Shown piece by piece: positions 1,888 through 28,735 of a DNA stretch of 28,735 nt (position 1 is its first letter; each line of letters opens with the position of its first letter). The translations under genes and the position numbers were made by a program. Below the pieces are notes generated by a model. The model did not search any database. It saw only the letters and a program-made list of their open reading frames with translations, and was not told the origin of the DNA. Origin of the DNA: a virus; the IMG/VR virus record IMGVR_UViG_3300017757_000096, positions 1-28,735 of that record; one strand, 5' to 3'.

Positions 1888-3441
1888 ATGTCGGACGCAA
1901 TTGTCAAGAACCTCAGCTTTGGTCACGAAGCTAAGGATAAACTATTTGAAGGTATAAACAAACTCACAAAAGCCGTTAGTTCCACTCTCGGAGCTAGCGG
2001 TAAACGTGTGATATTAGAAGACGGTGCAGGAAAACCTGTTATTACAAAAGATGGAGTAACTGTTGCAGATTCAATTATACTATTGGACCCTATTGAAAAT
2101 ATGGGTGCTACGCTTTTAAAGGAAGCTGCTAGGAAAACTGTAAGAGAAGCTGGCGACGGAACGACAACGGCTACAGTGCTAGCGCACTCAATTTTAAATG
2201 AAGCATACCCTAAATTAAAAGAATTAGGCGCAAGAAACCTAAAAGAGGGTATTGACAGTGCAGTACAAAAAGTTGTAAAGTATTTAGAAAAAAGCTCTAC
2301 GGAAGTCACTGGCGATATGATTGACCAAGTGGCTAGTATATCCACCAATAATGATATAAAGCTAGGCACGACTATCGCAGATGCTTTTAGATCGGTTGAT
2401 GAAACCGGGGTAGTTATGATGGAAACAACAGAACTGTCTGAAACAACTTCTGAATTAATTGATGGATTACAATACGAAAAAGGATTAACAAATTCGCATT
2501 TTATTACCGAACAGGATTCTAAAGCTGCTACATTAAATAATCCATATGTGTTATTAATTGAATCTCCTGTAGAAAATATACGTAAAATACAATCTGTACT
2601 AGAATATATTATAAAGAAAAGTAAACCTTTGCTTATTATAGCTGATTTAGATCCTAAAGTAATAGCTACACTAGCAATGAATAAAGTTAAAGGTAATGTA
2701 AAAATTAATGTAATTAATGCACCTACATATGGAATAGCTAAAAAAGATATGTTAAGTGATTTGTCTTTACTAACTGGTGCTACTATTATAAATGAAGATT
2801 TAGGCGATGATATGGACTTAATTCAGCCTGAGCATTTAGGCAAATGCTTAAAGTCTGTAACTAATGATACTGAAACAATTATAAAAGTTGAAAGTATTAC
2901 AGAAGAGGTTGAAAAAGTAATTAAAAAAATTAAAAAAGATTTAGCGGGTAAAAACGCTGCTGCTGAAACTATAAGACTAGAAAAAAGGTTAGCTAGACTA
3001 TCGGCTAAAATTGCTACAGTTAAAGTTGGGGCGGACTCTGATATTGAATTAAAAGAAAAAGCAGATAGGGTAGAAGATGCTATTTGTGCTACTAAAGCTG
3101 CTATTAAAGAAGGCATTGTGCCAGGCGGCGGGGTTGCATTATTAAATGCCGCCAAATATGTTAAAGCAAAAGATGATGCGGAACAAATATTATTAGATGC
3201 AATAGAACAACCATTTAATACTATATTAGAAAACGCTAATTTAAATATAATATGGAACGATAAACCGGGTTGGGGATTAAATGTTATTAGTGGAAAATCT
3301 TGTAATATGATAAAATCCGGCATTATAGACCCGTTGCTTGTAACTAAAACAGCATTAAAAAATGCGGCTTCAGTTGCAACTACAATATTATCTACTGATT
3401 GTATAATTAATAATTTACGTATTAATGAGGGCAATAGGTAG
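1888..3441 (+). CDS. groL: Chaperonin GroEL (Hsp60, group I), phage type
   Basis: ATP-driven folding chamber subunit, 517 residues. Equatorial-domain signatures are clear: TLG at 33-35, ITKDG with D55 (E. coli D52), GDGTTTATVLA with catalytic D90 (E. coli D87), SIS near 145, D397 (E. coli D398), PGGGVAL, and IIDP with D481 (E. coli D495). The apical domain (about 190-375) retains KPLLIIA and a reduced client/GroES face: L200 and H204 replace E. coli Y199 and Y203, while F205 is kept. Odd points: LGPKG reads LGASG here, NAA of the nucleotide pocket reads N465-V-I, and the flexible GGM-repeat tail is absent. It overlaps groES by 17 nt; bacterial operons have the opposite order. GC content falls sharply inside the gene near 2420-2520. 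Likely folds phage structural proteins (inference). Confidence 0.96.
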   Translation: MSDAIVKNLSFGHEAKDKLFEGINKLTKAVSSTLGASGKRVILEDGAGKPVITKDGVTVADSIILLDPIENMGATLLKEAARKTVREAGDGTTTATVLAHSILNEAYPKLKELGARNLKEGIDSAVQKVVKYLEKSSTEVTGDMIDQVASISTNNDIKLGTTIADAFRSVDETGVVMMETTELSETTSELIDGLQYEKGLTNSHFITEQDSKAATLNNPYVLLIESPVENIRKIQSVLEYIIKKSKPLLIIADLDPKVIATLAMNKVKGNVKINVINAPTYGIAKKDMLSDLSLLTGATIINEDLGDDMDLIQPEHLGKCLKSVTNDTETIIKVESITEEVEKVIKKIKKDLAGKNAAAETIRLEKRLARLSAKIATVKVGADSDIELKEKADRVEDAICATKAAIKEGIVPGGGVALLNAAKYVKAKDDAEQILLDAIEQPFNTILENANLNIIWNDKPGWGLNVISGKSCNMIKSGIIDPLLVTKTALKNAASVATTILSTDCIINNLRINEGNR

Positions 3442-3685
3442 AAATTTAATAATTAAAAAAGAAAAGCAAGGTACTTCAGAAACTAAAGGAGGTTTATTAT
3501 TAACTGAAAATCAAAGAGAAGATTTAAGATATAATAAAGCTAAAGTAATATCTACAGGGTCTGAAGTGGTTGGGGTCAAAGAAAACGATAATATTTATTA
3601 TGATAAGCATGCGGGGCATGGGGTTGAAATAAATAAAGAAGTTTTTCAGGTAATTAAGCTCCAAGACGTTGTTATTGTTTTATGA
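3425..3685 (+). CDS. groS: Co-chaperonin GroES (Cpn10)
   Basis: Lid of the GroEL chamber, 86 residues, slightly shorter than bacterial GroES (about 95). The N-terminal strand NLIIKK matches the Cpn10 start. A mobile loop (about 16-27) carries G22-G23-L24-L25-L26-T, the equivalent of the GGIVLT tripeptide that docks to the GroEL apical domain. AKVISTG and VKENDNIYYDKHAG match the barrel strands and roof region, and the protein ends in the usual hydrophobic strand (QDVVIVL). It begins inside groEL (17-nt overlap) and its stop overlaps the next ATG (ATGA), so the three genes are translationally coupled. The intact mobile loop suggests it works with the adjacent GroEL or the host's. Confidence 0.92.
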   Translation: MRAIGRNLIIKKEKQGTSETKGGLLLTENQREDLRYNKAKVISTGSEVVGVKENDNIYYDKHAGHGVEINKEVFQVIKLQDVVIVL

Positions 3686-7548: not shown

Positions 7549-7779
7549 ATGGATAGCGTTGTAAGAAAAATCAGCATCGGCTCTGATTATAAAAATGATG
7601 CTATGCATTACTCTGTAGGCCAAGATGTATATGGAGGACACAAAATAGCTTATATCATATTCGACGATACTGATAGTTCTTATAATATTTTTATAAAAAA
7701 AAGCAACGAAGTGCTGCCGTGGAAAAAGTTTAATTCTAATATGGCTATATCGGTAGAATATAATTTAGAATATGAATAG
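7549..7779 (+). CDS. Conserved hypothetical phage protein (76 aa)
   Basis: The pattern VVRKISIGSDYKNDAMHYSVGQ, followed by alternating strands (HKIAYIIFD, YNIFIKKSN) and a final LPWKKFNSNMAISVEYN, is one I recall from marine Bacteroidota and cyanophage genomes, always next to packaging genes. Function unknown. It looks like a small beta-sheet domain. The coding end overlaps the start of the tandem GroES-like gene by 8 nt, suggesting translational coupling and joint action. Confidence 0.75.
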   Translation: MDSVVRKISIGSDYKNDAMHYSVGQDVYGGHKIAYIIFDDTDSSYNIFIKKSNEVLPWKKFNSNMAISVEYNLEYE

Positions 7780-8377
7780 TGTTTATGATTTTATTGTTAA
7801 GCCTATTGGAGAAAGATATAACAATACAACTAAAGTAAACGATAAAGAGCTAATTTTAAATTGTAATATAGAATCTTTTAAATTTATAAATAGGCTTGCA
7901 AAAGTAATAGCTATTCCTAAAGCATATAATACGCCTATTGAAAAAAATGATGAAATTATAATTCATCACAATGTATTTAGGAGATACTACGATATAAAAG
8001 GTAAAGAAAAAAATAGCAGCAAATATTTTAAAAACAATCTTTATTTTTGCCAACCCGATCAAGTATATCTTTATAAAAAAAATAATAAATGGCGGTCATT
8101 TATGGATAGATGCTTTGTTAAGCCTTTATTAAATAATGACGATACAAGCTTAGAAAAAGAGCAAAAGCATATTGGTATACTTAAATATGGCAATAGCTCC
8201 TTAAAAGCGCTTGAAATCAATCCAGGCGATGTTATAGGCTTTACTCCTAATAGCGAATGGGAGTTTATCGTAGATAATGAGCGATTATATTGTATGAAAT
8301 CTAATGATATTGTTATTAAGTATGAACGTAAAGAAAACCAAACTGAATATAATCCAAGCTGGGCAAAAAGCAGTTGA
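7772..8377 (+). CDS. Tandem GroES-like (double Cpn10-fold) protein
   Basis: 201 residues that read as two GroES-type barrels in a row. Domain 1 (about 6-101): DFIVKP (start strand), then ELILN, then NRLAKVIAIP followed by IEKNDEIIIHHNVF; compare the phage GroES NKAKVIST followed by VKENDNIYYDKHAG. It closes with QVYLYKK. Domain 2 (112-185): CFVKP, HIGILKYG, INPGDVIGFTPNSEWEF, then IVDNERLYCMKSNDIVIKYE, which tracks the bacterial GroES end ([20 protein letters not shown]) nearly residue for residue. Domain 1 may keep a short mobile-loop-like ELIL; domain 2 lacks a GG-hydrophobic loop. It may be a co-chaperonin, a GroEL modulator or a packaging accessory with a borrowed fold. It overlaps the TerS-like gene. 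Confidence 0.7.
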   Translation: MNSVYDFIVKPIGERYNNTTKVNDKELILNCNIESFKFINRLAKVIAIPKAYNTPIEKNDEIIIHHNVFRRYYDIKGKEKNSSKYFKNNLYFCQPDQVYLYKKNNKWRSFMDRCFVKPLLNNDDTSLEKEQKHIGILKYGNSSLKALEINPGDVIGFTPNSEWEFIVDNERLYCMKSNDIVIKYERKENQTEYNPSWAKSS

Positions 8378-23311: not shown

Positions 23312-24838
23312 ATGCCAGCAACTATAGAAGTAAAATATTTTAATAGCTTTGTTTTAAAGAAAGTTTTAAATTCTTCGTCTGTTCCGGTTTGGAATGGGTC
23401 ATTTGGCATACCCCAAGCTTTAGGAGGTACAGGCGCGGGGGGTTATGATCAAGGAAATGTAGAAACATCTGATGCTGCAATCATTGCTAAAAATTGGACA
23501 ATTGAAGAATCAAGAATTAGAGGAGGATATAATAATACATCGGTTAGCTTTGGCCCTAGGGCTTATTTAGTAGAAGAAGAGCCTAACGCAACCTTTAGAA
23601 CTAACTCATTAATATATTCGGGGATATTTAATTCAAGTACGGGAATTAATAATACAAATGTATTTAGTGTTGGAACTGATATTACAAAAAGTTTAAATCC
23701 TGCATATGGTTCTATACAAAAATTATACGCTCAAGATTATTATTTAACTATATTTCAAGAGGATAAAGTTAGTAGAGCGCCTATAAATAAAAACGTAATA
23801 TATTCTGCAGAAGGTAATCCAACTGTAACAACCAGTAATATGGTTATTGGAGAACCTCAAGCTTATGCAGGTAATTTTGGTATTAGCAGAAATCCTGAAA
23901 GCCATGCCGTTTACGGCTTTAGGCAATACTTTGTAGATAAAGATAGAAACGCAGTATTAAGATTATCTAATAATGGTCTGGAAGAAATACAACGTTACGG
24001 CATGTATGACTTTTTTAGAGATAAGTTAAGTGAACTAGATCAAGGCAAACCTTTTATAGCCGGCAAAGCTATAGGAATGTGGGATATTTATAATAAACAA
24101 TACGTTGTATCACTACAAACTGCTAATGCATCTTTTACAATTAATGCTTTAGGTGAGCCTGAAACTAATTCGTATTTTACTTTGTCTTTCGATGATGACA
24201 TAAACGGATGGAATAGCTTTTTTAATTATAAGCCCGCCTTAGGATTTAGTTTAAAAAATTATTTTTACACTGTAAATAACGGGACAACATCTTTTCCCGC
24301 AGCTGCGTTGTATCAACATAATAGCATGGATGTAAATAGAAGTAATTTTTATGGCGTTAATAATGACTCTAATATTACTTTTATATTTAACCCTCGCCCT
24401 AGTATGTCTAAAGTGTTTAAAACTATAAACTACGAGGGAAGTAATGGCTGGCAAGTAAATAGCATTAATTCAGATTTTACGGGGATTGGCACTGTTGACA
24501 CTGATTTTTTAAATTTTGCTACAACTAATACACAAGATACAGCAGCCTTAATATATAGCTACAATCAAGGGGCTTATGATAATTATGGTAATAAATTTCC
24601 TGCAAGGCTTATACCTCCTTTAAATAGGGCAGGTTTTACCAGAAAAGAAAATAAATACATGGCAAACATAGTTAATAATAGTGCTATAGCTCCCGGTGAA
24701 GTAAGGTTTGGTAATCAAATGAGTGGTATTAAAGGACATTTTACTACAGTCACATTATCTACTGATACCGTTACTGATTTTGGAGGCTCAAAAGAATTAT
24801 TTGCTGTATCTTCGGAATACGCGGAATCATCTTATTAA
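23312..24838 (+). CDS. Tail protein, partner of the stabilisation protein
   Basis: 508 residues. Distinctive segments: NWTIEESRIRGGYNNTSVSF (about 61-80), NSLIYSGIFNSSTGINNTN (98-116), YGSIQKLYAQDYYLTIFQED then KVSRAPI (about 131-157), ISRNPESHAVYGFRQYFVDK (about 190-209), LRLSNNGLEEIQRYGMYDFF (about 216-235). These are motifs I know from tail tube or tail-associated proteins of crAss-like and related phages, with beta-propeller-like repeats. It comes 29 nt after the 1457-residue protein, and the two may correspond to parts of a single protein in relatives. Part of the tail assembly; a precise place is not visible from sequence. Confidence 0.8.
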   Translation: MPATIEVKYFNSFVLKKVLNSSSVPVWNGSFGIPQALGGTGAGGYDQGNVETSDAAIIAKNWTIEESRIRGGYNNTSVSFGPRAYLVEEEPNATFRTNSLIYSGIFNSSTGINNTNVFSVGTDITKSLNPAYGSIQKLYAQDYYLTIFQEDKVSRAPINKNVIYSAEGNPTVTTSNMVIGEPQAYAGNFGISRNPESHAVYGFRQYFVDKDRNAVLRLSNNGLEEIQRYGMYDFFRDKLSELDQGKPFIAGKAIGMWDIYNKQYVVSLQTANASFTINALGEPETNSYFTLSFDDDINGWNSFFNYKPALGFSLKNYFYTVNNGTTSFPAAALYQHNSMDVNRSNFYGVNNDSNITFIFNPRPSMSKVFKTINYEGSNGWQVNSINSDFTGIGTVDTDFLNFATTNTQDTAALIYSYNQGAYDNYGNKFPARLIPPLNRAGFTRKENKYMANIVNNSAIAPGEVRFGNQMSGIKGHFTTVTLSTDTVTDFGGSKELFAVSSEYAESSY

Positions 24839-24847
24839 TAATAACAA

Positions 24848-25645
24848 ATGGAAGGAGTAATTGAAATTTTAAAACTTGCGTGGTATGGTCACGAGATTGA
24901 AGGATTAATAAAACTAGAACCTATTATAACGGCGGCACTTATTGGGGGTGGTGCAACTTTATTAGGTGGTTTATTTGGAGCATCATCAGCAAACAAAAGA
25001 GCCAAAAGAGCGGCTAGAGAGAAACGAAGATTAGAAGGAGAGCTAAAAGAATTAGAAAATAGTAGACAACCGATTATAAATCCTTATGCTGGAATGCAAG
25101 ACTTTTCTAGTATAGCGGAGGATCTCAGCTCTAAAATGACTAATCCTTTTGATAGTTTAGGTGTAGCTACGCAGGCCGCTGAAATACAAATGGAACAAAC
25201 AGATATAGCTTTAGCTAATACTTTAGATACATTAAGAGCTACAGGTGCGAGCGCTGGGGGAGCCACCGCCCTAGCTCAAGCAGCCTTGGCTAGTAAAAAA
25301 GGTGTTGCTGCAAATATAGAACAGCAAGAAGCTAAAAATGAACAATTAAGAGCGCAGGGGGAAGCTACTTTAGAAGCTAATAGAATGGCTGAAGAACGAA
25401 GACTCCAAAGTGTCAAACTTGGACAAGCTGAAAAGTTAGAGCAAGGAAGAACTCGAGGTGCCGCATTTGTTTACGGAGAAAAAGAAAGAAGACAAACGGA
25501 ACAACTTAATAGAAAACAAGCTCAAATAACCGGGCAAGCGCAAGTGCAGACACAAGCAAGAGCGGATGCCGCGGCTATAACAGGGGCTACAATAGGAGGA
25601 ATTACTGATATTGCTTCATCAGCCGTTCAAGCATTAGATAGTTAA
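24848..25645 (+). CDS. Internal virion (ejection) protein, gp14-like
   Basis: 265 residues. Begins with an optional leader (1-24), then a single glycine-rich membrane segment (about 26-45, ITAALIGGGATLLGGLFGAS), followed by a long Ala/Glu/Gln/Arg-rich helix. Motifs such as NPFDSLGVATQAAEIQMEQT, DIALANTLDTLRATGASAGG and ALAQAALASKKGVAANIEQQ are those of ejection proteins in Bacteroidota and marine podoviruses, and the build resembles T7 gp14. After DNA ejection such proteins insert into the host envelope and help to form a trans-envelope channel. The next gene is a further ejection-type protein. A second Met is not present before the membrane segment, so the start at 24848 is kept. Confidence 0.82.
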   Translation: MEGVIEILKLAWYGHEIEGLIKLEPIITAALIGGGATLLGGLFGASSANKRAKRAAREKRRLEGELKELENSRQPIINPYAGMQDFSSIAEDLSSKMTNPFDSLGVATQAAEIQMEQTDIALANTLDTLRATGASAGGATALAQAALASKKGVAANIEQQEAKNEQLRAQGEATLEANRMAEERRLQSVKLGQAEKLEQGRTRGAAFVYGEKERRQTEQLNRKQAQITGQAQVQTQARADAAAITGATIGGITDIASSAVQALDS

Positions 25646-25664: not shown

Positions 25665-27170
25665 ATGGGAGCATATGAAAATCCAATAACGGTTGTAGAT
25701 AATCAATCAGGTCAAATTTGGGCAAATACAATATCAAATGTGGCTAAAGCTACAACTAATTATATTGATTTTACACGTCAAAAAAATGATGAGCGAGCTA
25801 AAAAAATTCAAGAGCAACTTAATTGGGCGGCTGAATATGCTTCTAAAAATCAAGAGCAAGTTTATACCAATTTAAGAAAGTTAGGTGCTGATTCAATATA
25901 TAGTAAAGAAGCTGATGAAGTTTTAAATTTAGTTACTGAAAATAGAATAGCTATGCAAAATGCTTCTACTAAAGAAGAATTAAAAATAGCGCAAGAAGGA
26001 TTTGGTAAAGCTCAAAAAAGATTGCAGCAATTGTATTCTGTAATTAAAATGGATGAAGAATCTAAAATATTTTACGGAGAAGAGTTTGATCCCGCTACAG
26101 CAGGTATGCAAGGTGGTATGTCTAAAAGTAAACCCGGCACAGCTGATTGGGTTGCCGCGCAAAATGTAAATAACGGTTTTGCTAAAGGACAAAAACAAGT
26201 TTATTGGGACGACGAAACAGGTGCATATAAAATGAAATTTTCGGGAGAGAACATTGAGGGTGTTATTGATAAAGATGCTCGCTTGCTATTTGGATATGAT
26301 CCTGGTAAAGTTCCTAGCATTGATTCTATGATATATGGCACTTACCAAAAAGCAGGATATTTAGACAAAAATAATCAACTTACTGATAGTGCAATGTCAA
26401 ACTATAAATTTACCAAGTTATCTGATAATGGTAAATATGAAACATTATATACTGCTACAGCAGCTAATAGAATAGCTCAAAATACTACGTCACAATTTGA
26501 AGCTCAAGCAAGATCATTCTTTACTGTTCCAGAAGATGCTGAAAATGTTTGGGCAATTATAGGTAAAGAAAGTAATAAACAATTTAGTGCTTCAGAATTA
26601 CTGCAACAAGGAAGCGAAATGCAAACAGAATTTGTAAAAGCTTACGCTGAGTATGCTTCTAAATTAATACCTAATTATAAAGAAAATAATACCTATCAAA
26701 CTAAAGCTGTTAGCGGCAAGGGGGGTAAAGGTGGTACAGGTGAAGCTAAAGCATTAGCCAACGCCGAAGCTTTTGTAGTACAGTTTTCCGAAAACTTAGG
26801 TAGTTTTGGAATGGCTAGGAATAAAGACGGAATCATAATTGGAAATGTTCAATTTGATAATGTTTCTACTGTAAATAAAGGATTAGCCGGGTTAGGCTAT
26901 TCTTTAGTAAATGATGGAATTTTTCAAGATGAGGATGGAAATATTACAGAAATAAAAATTAAGAAAAATGGAGCAAAAGGAACAGAAGATTTTACAGTAA
27001 ATGCCGGTGATGACCCTTATGTGTTTTTTCAAAACTTATTAGAATCTCAGGGGCTTAGTAAAGATTTAGCGCAGCAAATTGCTAAAAATTTATTATATAC
27101 TGGCAGATTACAAAGAGATGAATCTGTAACAGATGAGGGACAAAAATATAATCAATACGAAAGAAAATAA
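25665..27170 (+). CDS. Internal virion/cargo protein (501 aa)
   Basis: 501 residues, helical, Lys/Gln/Asn/Ala-rich. N-terminal half: VAKATTNYIDFTRQKNDERA and AKKIQEQLNWAAEYASKNQE, typical of helical bundle ejection proteins. A middle region has GEEFDPATAGMQGGMS and PGTADWVAAQNVNNGFAKGQ. Near 355-365 is a lysine/glycine linker (VSGKGGKGGTGEAK), followed by an alpha/beta end (IIIGNVQFDNV, ITEIKIKKNG). The lack of signal peptide and membrane segment fits a protein packaged inside the head. Gene position between the gp14-like protein and a giant glycine-rich virion protein, as in podovirus internal-core clusters, supports this; no enzymatic motif is seen. Confidence 0.7.
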   Translation: MGAYENPITVVDNQSGQIWANTISNVAKATTNYIDFTRQKNDERAKKIQEQLNWAAEYASKNQEQVYTNLRKLGADSIYSKEADEVLNLVTENRIAMQNASTKEELKIAQEGFGKAQKRLQQLYSVIKMDEESKIFYGEEFDPATAGMQGGMSKSKPGTADWVAAQNVNNGFAKGQKQVYWDDETGAYKMKFSGENIEGVIDKDARLLFGYDPGKVPSIDSMIYGTYQKAGYLDKNNQLTDSAMSNYKFTKLSDNGKYETLYTATAANRIAQNTTSQFEAQARSFFTVPEDAENVWAIIGKESNKQFSASELLQQGSEMQTEFVKAYAEYASKLIPNYKENNTYQTKAVSGKGGKGGTGEAKALANAEAFVVQFSENLGSFGMARNKDGIIIGNVQFDNVSTVNKGLAGLGYSLVNDGIFQDEDGNITEIKIKKNGAKGTEDFTVNAGDDPYVFFQNLLESQGLSKDLAQQIAKNLLYTGRLQRDESVTDEGQKYNQYERK

Positions 27171-27175
27171 TATTC

Positions 27176-28735
27176 ATGGTTTCATATCAAGTAAATGGTA
27201 AAATCTACGATCTTCCTGAAGAAGAAGTTCAAGGATTTTTAAATGAATTTCCAGATGCAGTAATAGTTGAAGAAAACGAAACTGTGGAAAAGTCAATACC
27301 TTCACCGGAAGAGAGTGCACCTGTGGAGGAAAATGTAGCACTCGACAATACGGTATCAGAGCCGGTAGATACTTCTTTGGAATTACCTACAACATATAAA
27401 GTTGATGGTAAAATTTATGATTTACCTAAAGAAGAGGTTGCTGGATTTTTAAGTGTTTTTACAGATGCCGAACCCTATGAAGAAACTTCTATAGAAGCCG
27501 TGGATAATTTAATTGAAGAGCCTAAAGAAAAAGATGAAGAAGTTAAATATGAATCAGCTCCTCAATATATATATGAGAATATAGTTGACTTTGTACAAGA
27601 TTTAGGAGATGCATGGCAAAACGGTATACTTCAAGGAGAACAGACCGATAAAGGTATTGAATTAGCCGGCTATTTTAATGACCCCGCTACTGAAAAAGAA
27701 GTTGTTGATTGGATTGATGGCCAAAAAAAAGTAGCTCAACAAAATATACAATCAGCAGAAATGCGTGAGTTTGATCGTATATATGAAGAAGCTGGAGGTG
27801 GTATGTGGGGATTTTTAAAAGGAGCTGCATATAACCCTAGTATTCTTTCTACAACTCTTTTAAGCTCAATAGCTTCCCAATATAGCTCTATTAAAAATTC
27901 AGAAGAAGTAGCAGTGGCTGCTACAGCAGGGGCTATTGCAGGTTCCGCGTTTAGCCCAGTTGGTACATTAATAGGTGTAACTACAGGCTCTATGGCAATG
28001 ATGGAGGCTGGATTAACTTTTAATGAGTTAATGATGGAAGAAATCGGAGAAGATATAAATGATCCCAGCGCTAAAGAAAAAATTATAGCTGTATTAAATG
28101 ATCCCGAAAAAATGACTGATCTTCGCCGTAAAGCTGCATTACGAGGAGCTGTAATAGCGGGGGTTGAGCTAGCAACTTTAGGCATGGCTAAGGGGGTTGC
28201 TGGTAAACTTGCTAGTAAAGCATTACCTATTACAGGATTAGCGGCCGGTGGTGCTATCGAAATAGTTGGAGGTGGTTTAGGTGAAGTAGGAGGTAGATTA
28301 GCTGCTGGACAAGAAATGGACGCTAAAGAAATTGGCTTTGAAGCTTTTGCCGGACTTGGAAGTGCACCAATAAGTTTAGGTTCGCAAGCTTTAAAATTAC
28401 AAACAGCTATGCAAACTGCAGAAGCTGGTAAAAAAGTAAGGGCTTCAGATTTTAATAGTTTAACTGAAGTTTATTCTAATGAAAATAGCAATAGTGAAAC
28501 AGCTATTGAAATAAGTAAATTAAGTAAATCAGTTAAAATAGTAGATAGGGAGGTTGATGAAAAAGTTAATTCTGGCGAATTTACGCAAGAAGAAGGCAAT
28601 AATATTAAAAATAATTTTAGGGATACGCAGGGCGCTGTTAATCGTATAAAGCCTTTAAATTTTAATACTGAGCAAGAAACCAAAGCTGTTGAATTATTAA
28701 AAGAAAAACAACAACTTGTAAATGAAATTAAAGAA
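27176..28735 (+). CDS. Giant internal virion protein, 3' truncated by window edge
   Basis: Open from ATG 27176 to the window end (520 codons, no stop). It starts 5 nt after the preceding stop. Two copies of a short unit open the protein: YQVNGKIYDLPEEEVQGFLN (4-23) and YKVDGKIYDLPKEEVAGFLS (about 74-93), separated by an acidic Glu/Pro-rich linker. Residues about 195-265 and 325-400 are glycine/alanine-rich and hydrophobic (AATAGAIAGSAFSPVGTLIG; PITGLAAGGAIEIVGGGLG), like glycine-zipper membrane segments in T7 gp16-type ejection proteins. After about 410 it turns charged and helical. The usual large size suggests further domains beyond the edge (lytic or enzymatic), which cannot be seen. Confidence 0.8.
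   Translation, partial: MVSYQVNGKIYDLPEEEVQGFLNEFPDAVIVEENETVEKSIPSPEESAPVEENVALDNTVSEPVDTSLELPTTYKVDGKIYDLPKEEVAGFLSVFTDAEPYEETSIEAVDNLIEEPKEKDEEVKYESAPQYIYENIVDFVQDLGDAWQNGILQGEQTDKGIELAGYFNDPATEKEVVDWIDGQKKVAQQNIQSAEMREFDRIYEEAGGGMWGFLKGAAYNPSILSTTLLSSIASQYSSIKNSEEVAVAATAGAIAGSAFSPVGTLIGVTTGSMAMMEAGLTFNELMMEEIGEDINDPSAKEKIIAVLNDPEKMTDLRRKAALRGAVIAGVELATLGMAKGVAGKLASKALPITGLAAGGAIEIVGGGLGEVGGRLAAGQEMDAKEIGFEAFAGLGSAPISLGSQALKLQTAMQTAEAGKKVRASDFNSLTEVYSNENSNSETAIEISKLSKSVKIVDREVDEKVNSGEFTQEEGNNIKNNFRDTQGAVNRIKPLNFNTEQETKAVELLKEKQQLVNEIKE

Follow-up and report, generated by a model that had tools for sequence, protein, structure and literature searches.

How phages choose and attach very large co-injected proteins is an open question, and it is raised here by a short repeated unit at the very front of a giant phage protein. 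The window, that is the whole stretch of DNA analysed, is the IMG/VR virus record IMGVR_UViG_3300017757_000096, a fragment of 28,735 bases only. It encodes matches to terminase, portal, GroEL and GroES, together with a virion structural protein at the position of the capsid gene. The latter has 85 similar phage records, every one at less than 60% identity, and its relatives are Flavobacterium elemo, Cellulophaga, Maribacter Panino and uncultured MW202828 phages. A crassvirus-type muzzle C-terminal domain (PF25729), whose presence serves as a criterion for Crassvirales, was found at 23312-24838 (E = 2.8e-13, 50.5 bits against a cut-off of 27). The stretches 1888-3685 and 7772-8377 hold the GroEL and GroES genes and, adjoining the terminase, a second protein (201 aa) with a GroES PHROG match. 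The last three genes encode a 265-aa protein, a 501-aa protein and the giant, with the following features.

24848..25645, + strand: 265-aa structural-type protein, first of the three-gene set (kept in relatives; anchor for collecting relatives)
25665..27170, + strand: 501-aa ejection-type protein upstream of the giant, the proposed docking partner (gene order in relatives)
27117..27167, + strand: C-terminal tail of the 501-aa protein, aa 485-501, DESVTDEGQKYNQYERK, the proposed docking peptide (conserved with the tag in the related locus L163)
27117..27475, + strand: tail-plus-tag cassette of about 360 nt, common to L163 between unlike flanks (DNA identity profile)
27176..28735, + strand: giant cargo protein, N-terminal 520 aa, ATG start, open at the contig end (ORF call)
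27185..27274, + strand: docking unit 1, aa 4-33 of the giant, class A, predicted ββαβ (repeat comparison, AlphaFold model)
27275..27394, + strand: acidic linker, aa 34-73, low model confidence, containing ..VDTSLEL.. (composition, model, cross-class likeness)
27395..27484, + strand: docking unit 2, aa 74-103, class A, predicted ββα(β) (repeat comparison, AlphaFold model)

The ejection-protein (gp15/gp16-like) assignment in the window was made from gene order and size alone, and the 501-aa protein gave no PHROG match. Phage phi18:3 has gp120, gp121 and gp123 at the places of the 265-aa protein, the 501-aa protein and the giant; the correspondence is by position only, and the annotation of all three derives from virion MS/MS. 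The gap between the 501-aa gene and the giant ORF is 5 nt. This ORF is open for 980 aa in a near-identical contig (L010/L003), and the giant reaches up to 2159 aa in complete relatives (L012). Residues 135-483 match phrog_32588, a PHROG of unknown function. Searches against Pfam returned nothing at E≤1 for aa 1-520, only below-cut-off matches for aa 1-110 and no match for the 980 aa available in L010. The ~500-aa upstream proteins of the window (25665-25700) and its relatives, otherwise unlike in sequence, frequently start with M[SG][YA][RE]NP, perhaps another docking element at their N-terminus.

The preliminary description had reported two copies of a 20-residue unit flanking an acidic linker. 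The repeat is real: the copies are identical at 20 of 30 residues, and their ungapped BLOSUM62 score is 100, a value that 200 shuffles of giant aa 1-130 did not approach (41 at most). The length has to be revised, since the aligned copies span aa 4-33 and 74-103 and the unit is therefore nearer 30 than 20 residues. At the DNA level the copies are 75% identical over 93 nt, with pS of 0.47 and pN of 0.22 (28 codons). Ten of the 40 linker residues are D/E and one is K/R. AlphaFold models two ββα(β) mini-domains (block pLDDT 86-89) joined by a linker of pLDDT about 50-54, which corresponds to the flexible linker of the docking domains compared below. No third copy was found by a six-frame motif scan and a search of the window's own 28,735-base record. 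A structure search with the class A model gave no match at E≤0.001; the best viral match was A0A8S5TE94_1 (Podoviridae ctzXp5; E = 5e-3, probability 1.00, 105 columns).

Using the 265-aa family as anchor, 80 loci were fetched, of which L010, the window's near-identical contig, was set aside. Seventeen of the remaining 79 lacked a giant start, leaving 62 which, with the window, make 63 giants, all starting with ATG. One further candidate relative, ARB25_34, was dropped because its match was weak (E = 2) and its gene surroundings were of a different kind. The N-terminus of the giants is occupied by dissimilar units in one or two copies, hereafter the tag. HMMs placed 11 giants in class A (the window's), 26 in class B, 17 in class C and 9 in none. 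Among 1283 ORFs, the matches listed to the A, B and C models at iE<0.01 were to giant N-termini only, including that of BS-TP4 gp3; as the HMM seeds were taken from these giants, the informative part is the absence of matches elsewhere. The idea that the unit is a general cargo or head-loading signal thus finds no support, matches being confined to the starts of giants. The class B tag is modelled as ββαα with a short last strand, and classes A and B, which both open with a hairpin in the models, may be related. Linker stretches like ..DTSLEL.. resemble one another between classes A, B and C: BLASTP without composition correction gave 70 pairs between classes at E<0.01. Of all tags, only the doubled class C units of L082 had a Pfam match above the cut-off, to cwf21 (28.4 bits against 23.2), a match that may reflect a similar helical hairpin.

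Among isolates, a doubled class D unit was recognised by eye in MW202828 and phi46:3, as was a short doubled ELDEFGIP unit in phi38:1 gp101; phage Panino has no recognisable tag at its annotated giant start. In 5 of 44 non-redundant giants the first 130 residues were more self-similar than any of 287 internal control windows; these were two of class A, one of C, one of D and L085, which has another repeat. A DNA pattern of the unit core occurred in 68 IMG/VR stretches. In five near relatives (four being contigs seen before) it stood at about the eighth residue of a long ORF. The same was true of the divergent giant L145, where the order of the three genes is unchanged, and, less certainly, of L132 (787 aa); the remaining contexts were judged unrelated.

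The tags are exchanged between bodies. Over aa 1-100 the giants of L012 and L163 are identical to the window's at 98/100 and 94/100 residues, yet over aa 101-300 at only 44/200 and 57/200; with the tag counted, the L012 giant aligns at 32% over 1091 columns, as a distant homologue would. L032 carries a single unit on another body. Conversely, the giants of L079 and L082 are ~77% identical to the window body (aa 131-600) and have a doubled class C tag. Absence from homologous virion proteins had been named as evidence against a docking unit: the window's unit is indeed absent there, but a different duplicated unit stands in its place. The middle of the giants is more variable than their C-terminal ~700 residues, which form a common block with a median identity of 40-47%. 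HExxH-like stretches, without a Pfam match, were seen by eye in two otherwise unlike bodies (EPSHELLHPIL in L010, LHEYFHAMG in L032) and resemble the metallopeptidase domains of polyvalent proteins. In four phages the tag is a separate small ORF (L095:35457-35860 in phi46:3, L167:6503-6910 in phi18:3, L165:4977-5380 in phi19:3 and L166:7532-7920 in phi13:2). All four carry TTAAAAAAAAAGACG (in-frame A AAA AAG) directly after it, and the giant then proceeds in the -1 frame with no ATG at that point; in phi13:2 an unrelated tag precedes the same A run. Tag and giant are possibly joined by programmed frameshift or slippage in these phages, or a common sequence artefact is present.

Tag class was then compared with the neighbouring proteins at 50 loci, where pairs are not independent. 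When upstream proteins were at least 40% identical, 19 of 21 pairs had the same tag class (expected 7.2; 0/2000 permutations), against 14 of 46 pairs with bodies at least 30% identical (expected 15.9); for bodies at least 40% and at least 50% identical the figures were 10/18 (expected 6.3) and 4/6 (expected 2.1). That the whole upstream protein fixes the tag class is only partly true, the rule being broken within one upstream cluster by L018 (class C, tail ..DLINKYKKS), L019 (B, ..SDLPE) and L020 (C, ..EYKGIKF). Attention therefore turned to the tail, and the C-terminal tails of the upstream protein were found to sort with tag class.

In the training loci, LP occurred in the tails of 16 of 25 class B loci and 0 of 34 others. 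The rule that LP in the last 12 residues goes with a class B tag was fixed before two held-out sets were fetched. The first (80 contigs, of which 61 were new; both genes were present in 48, and 45 of these were distinct) gave LP in 3/6 class B against 0/39 non-B loci (p = 0.0014). The second (80 loci: 13 without the gene pair, 34 seen before, 33 new, 29 distinct) gave 3/11 against 1/18, not significant alone (p = 0.14), the sole non-B locus with LP being L285, whose tag is B-like. Pooled, the held-out counts are 6/17 against 1/57 (p = 4e-4). By upstream clusters, formed at ≥40% identity with the tail removed, LP tails occur in 12/27 class B against 1/52 others (p = 3.5e-6, training included). 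LP is rare at other C-termini of the training loci (1/183 in B loci, 2/264 in non-B loci) and in internal windows of class B partner proteins (30/1033). In 21 loci the Leu codon of the LP tail is TTA (9), CTA (6), CTT (4) or TTG (2), and LP stands 18-49 nt from the ATG. This variation in codons and spacing points to selection on the protein and speaks against an mRNA-leader origin of the LP tail, which was rejected on these grounds. Freshwater class B tags of L052, L268, L272 and L275 run counter to the rule, being nearly identical behind differing tails.

Motifs for the other classes were drawn up post hoc, with 6/8 against 4/125 for class C1 tails ([KQ]Y type) and 13/20 against 8/113 for class A. 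A class A tail rule that had been fixed beforehand met only two class A loci, one a pass (a near-duplicate of L230) and one a fail. Across clusters, tail similarity correlated with tag similarity (rho = 0.123, 0/1000 permutations), as did, more weakly, a control segment at -60 to -31 of the upstream protein (rho = 0.062, 3/1000 permutations). In class C3 (L061, L085 and relatives) the three-gene set is a variant one, in which a ~366-aa upstream protein has a nearly constant tail, AQKFL..NNLN, and the tags vary.

Moreover, tail and tag change together between related phages. Over their whole length the upstream proteins of the window and L163 are 25% identical, yet the last 20 columns of the alignment hold 15 identities. 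Their DNA has an identity of 0.8-1.0 from about -60 to +300 of the ATG and of 0.37-0.73 on the flanks; within this ~360-nt island, 11 of 12 bins of 30 nt are at ≥0.9 and the last is at 0.8. A joint switch also occurs within another upstream cluster, between L230/L325 (A, DYSQFEE) and L243/L327 (B, ..ELPS and ..SLPTKDS). In phi13:2 and phi18:3 the pre-tail residues compared are identical, tail and tag then both differ, and nearly identical DNA resumes after the tag; both tail and tag of phi13:2 match Gundel_1. Lastly, BS-TP4 and BKO1-TP3 have a common upstream N-terminus (41% overall) and giant bodies 69% identical in the aligned segment. BS-TP4 has two class A units and a doubled tail (VVDYVPG+VIDYTPG), BKO1-TP3 two class D units and another doubled tail (NKKKSPTA+NKKKSPTS); tag units were counted by eye, and the second BS-TP4 unit is degenerate and not significant by HMM. 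A matched copy number of tail and tag was predicted, and relatives were then fetched (4 viral and 6 genome loci). Among six further distinct gut two-tag phages the tail is doubled in L330/L335, L331, L333 and L336 and not in L332 or L337. With the founding pair counted, the tail peptide is therefore doubled in 6 of 8, and the repeat score of each doubled tail is matched by at most 4 of 128 single-tag tails. A stricter motif forecast held only in part, and nine marine two-tag rows tested had no doubled tail.

Docking on another ejection protein, one of the roles suggested in the preliminary description, is the reading best supported by these sequence comparisons. We consider it probable, at roughly 60%, that the repeated unit is an N-terminal docking domain for the C-terminal peptide of the upstream neighbour, and that the pair is exchanged as a cassette. 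Each ~30-residue ββαβ mini-domain would hang on a flexible acidic tether, and its ligand would be the short linear peptide with which the ejection-type protein of the gene directly upstream ends. Such binding would couple the giant, variable cargo protein to the virion inner core and/or the ejected channel, acting in the head and/or during ejection, and doubling would presumably raise avidity. Tail peptide and tag would form a matched pair and pass between phages as a single cassette spanning the gene boundary, which would let one virion module carry different cargo bodies; this may be how different giant payloads plug into the same particle.

The main rival is neutral mosaicism, in which breakpoints tend to fall near the gene junction and tail and tag stay linked with no interaction. 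Phage mosaicism at domain borders is common, tail and tag lie only a few nucleotides apart, and the control segment is also weakly correlated with the tag; given this adjacency, linkage alone accounts for part of the association. However, LP tails are found on 12 separate upstream clusters (≥40% identity), where their codons and spacing vary, and doubled tails with doubled tags in 6 of 8 gut phages would be unexpected from linkage; we regard this explanation as unlikely. Internal proteins of T4 carry a capsid-targeting propeptide that is removed by the prohead protease. That tag and linker form such a propeptide would suit their N-terminal place, the low-confidence acidic linker and the likeness of linker stretches between classes, but would leave the tail covariation and the doubled tails unexplained. 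No protease family was seen among the 18 window proteins scanned, a weak point as the contig is partial, and we regard a propeptide as very improbable. Alternatively, the tag might dock on a third partner such as portal, scaffold or tail barrel, with the upstream tail binding the same site. In crAss001, portal and tail barrel are both touched by gp45, a cargo protein (PMC10172136), and tag class tracks upstream-protein similarity better than body similarity. Nevertheless, tail and tag switch jointly between closely related phages, as compared over the upstream protein and the giant, and in the gut set doubled tags come with doubled tails; we find a third partner improbable, though less so than a propeptide.

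If docking of tag on tail holds, an exchangeable peptide-domain pair would explain changing giant payloads in an unchanged virion, there would be a set of such pairs with different specificity, and a simple rule would predict touching ejection proteins in phages without structures. The chances seem to us even that this amounts to a modular docking code in Bacteroidota podoviruses, in which class-specific C-terminal peptides read several dissimilar N-terminal docking domains, sometimes copy-matched, and a self-contained cassette decides the payload.

Several known systems invite comparison, each here as far as the accessible portion of its source describes it. Polyvalent proteins are giant multidomain phage proteins thought to be injected (PMC5512222), which BS-TP4 gp3, with its A-type double tag, resembles in its InPase and ddrB-ParB domains. 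The N-terminal header domain proposed there is for conjugative elements (ArdC-N), and that portion describes no tail-tag pair (PMC5512222). CrAss001 (PMC10172136) is like the window in the crassvirus-type muzzle C-terminal domain; N-terminal tags are not described for its cargo proteins in the same portion, and the window's named capsid relatives are Flavobacterium, Cellulophaga and Maribacter phages and one uncultured phage. The docking domains of NRPS/PKS likewise fall into several dissimilar classes; as proposed for the window, the short peptide that ends one protein is paired with a small domain, held by a flexible linker, at the N-terminus of the very large next one (βhD and C-terminal SLiM, PMC9113145). 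In the βhD-SLiM pair a disordered C-terminal peptide of <15 aa on the upstream protein is specific for the domain (PMC9113145); for the phage tail and tag, what was observed is covariation and joint exchange. The βhD fold is αββαα (PMC9113145), which the predicted ββαα of class B resembles in part. However, the class A and B models have about 40 residues or fewer and are without the first helix, and the tag is therefore not a βhD domain. Solved βhD domains gave no significant sequence or structure match to the tags among the matches listed, and βhD domains are absent from the Foldseek and VIA matches listed for the class B model. NRPS docking pairs, whose way of working the tail and tag are proposed to follow, belong to other biology, the phage pair sitting on virion proteins. 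Peptide-domain docking is known, and its place among ejection proteins would be new; we found no description of such tail-tag pairing for ejection proteins in the open-licence literature. T7 gp15-gp16 and N4 gp51-gp50 offer a similar setting, with a large or giant ejection protein whose N-terminal part contacts a tunnel-forming neighbour (PMC8954989, PMC12633501). Exchangeable short peptide-domain pairs are not among what these sources, in the portions available, describe (PMC8954989, PMC12633501). For N4 it has been proposed that the N-terminal domain of gp50 is met by the end of gp51, its C-terminus (PMC12633501), and the docking of tag on tail proposed here would, by analogy, have the same polarity.
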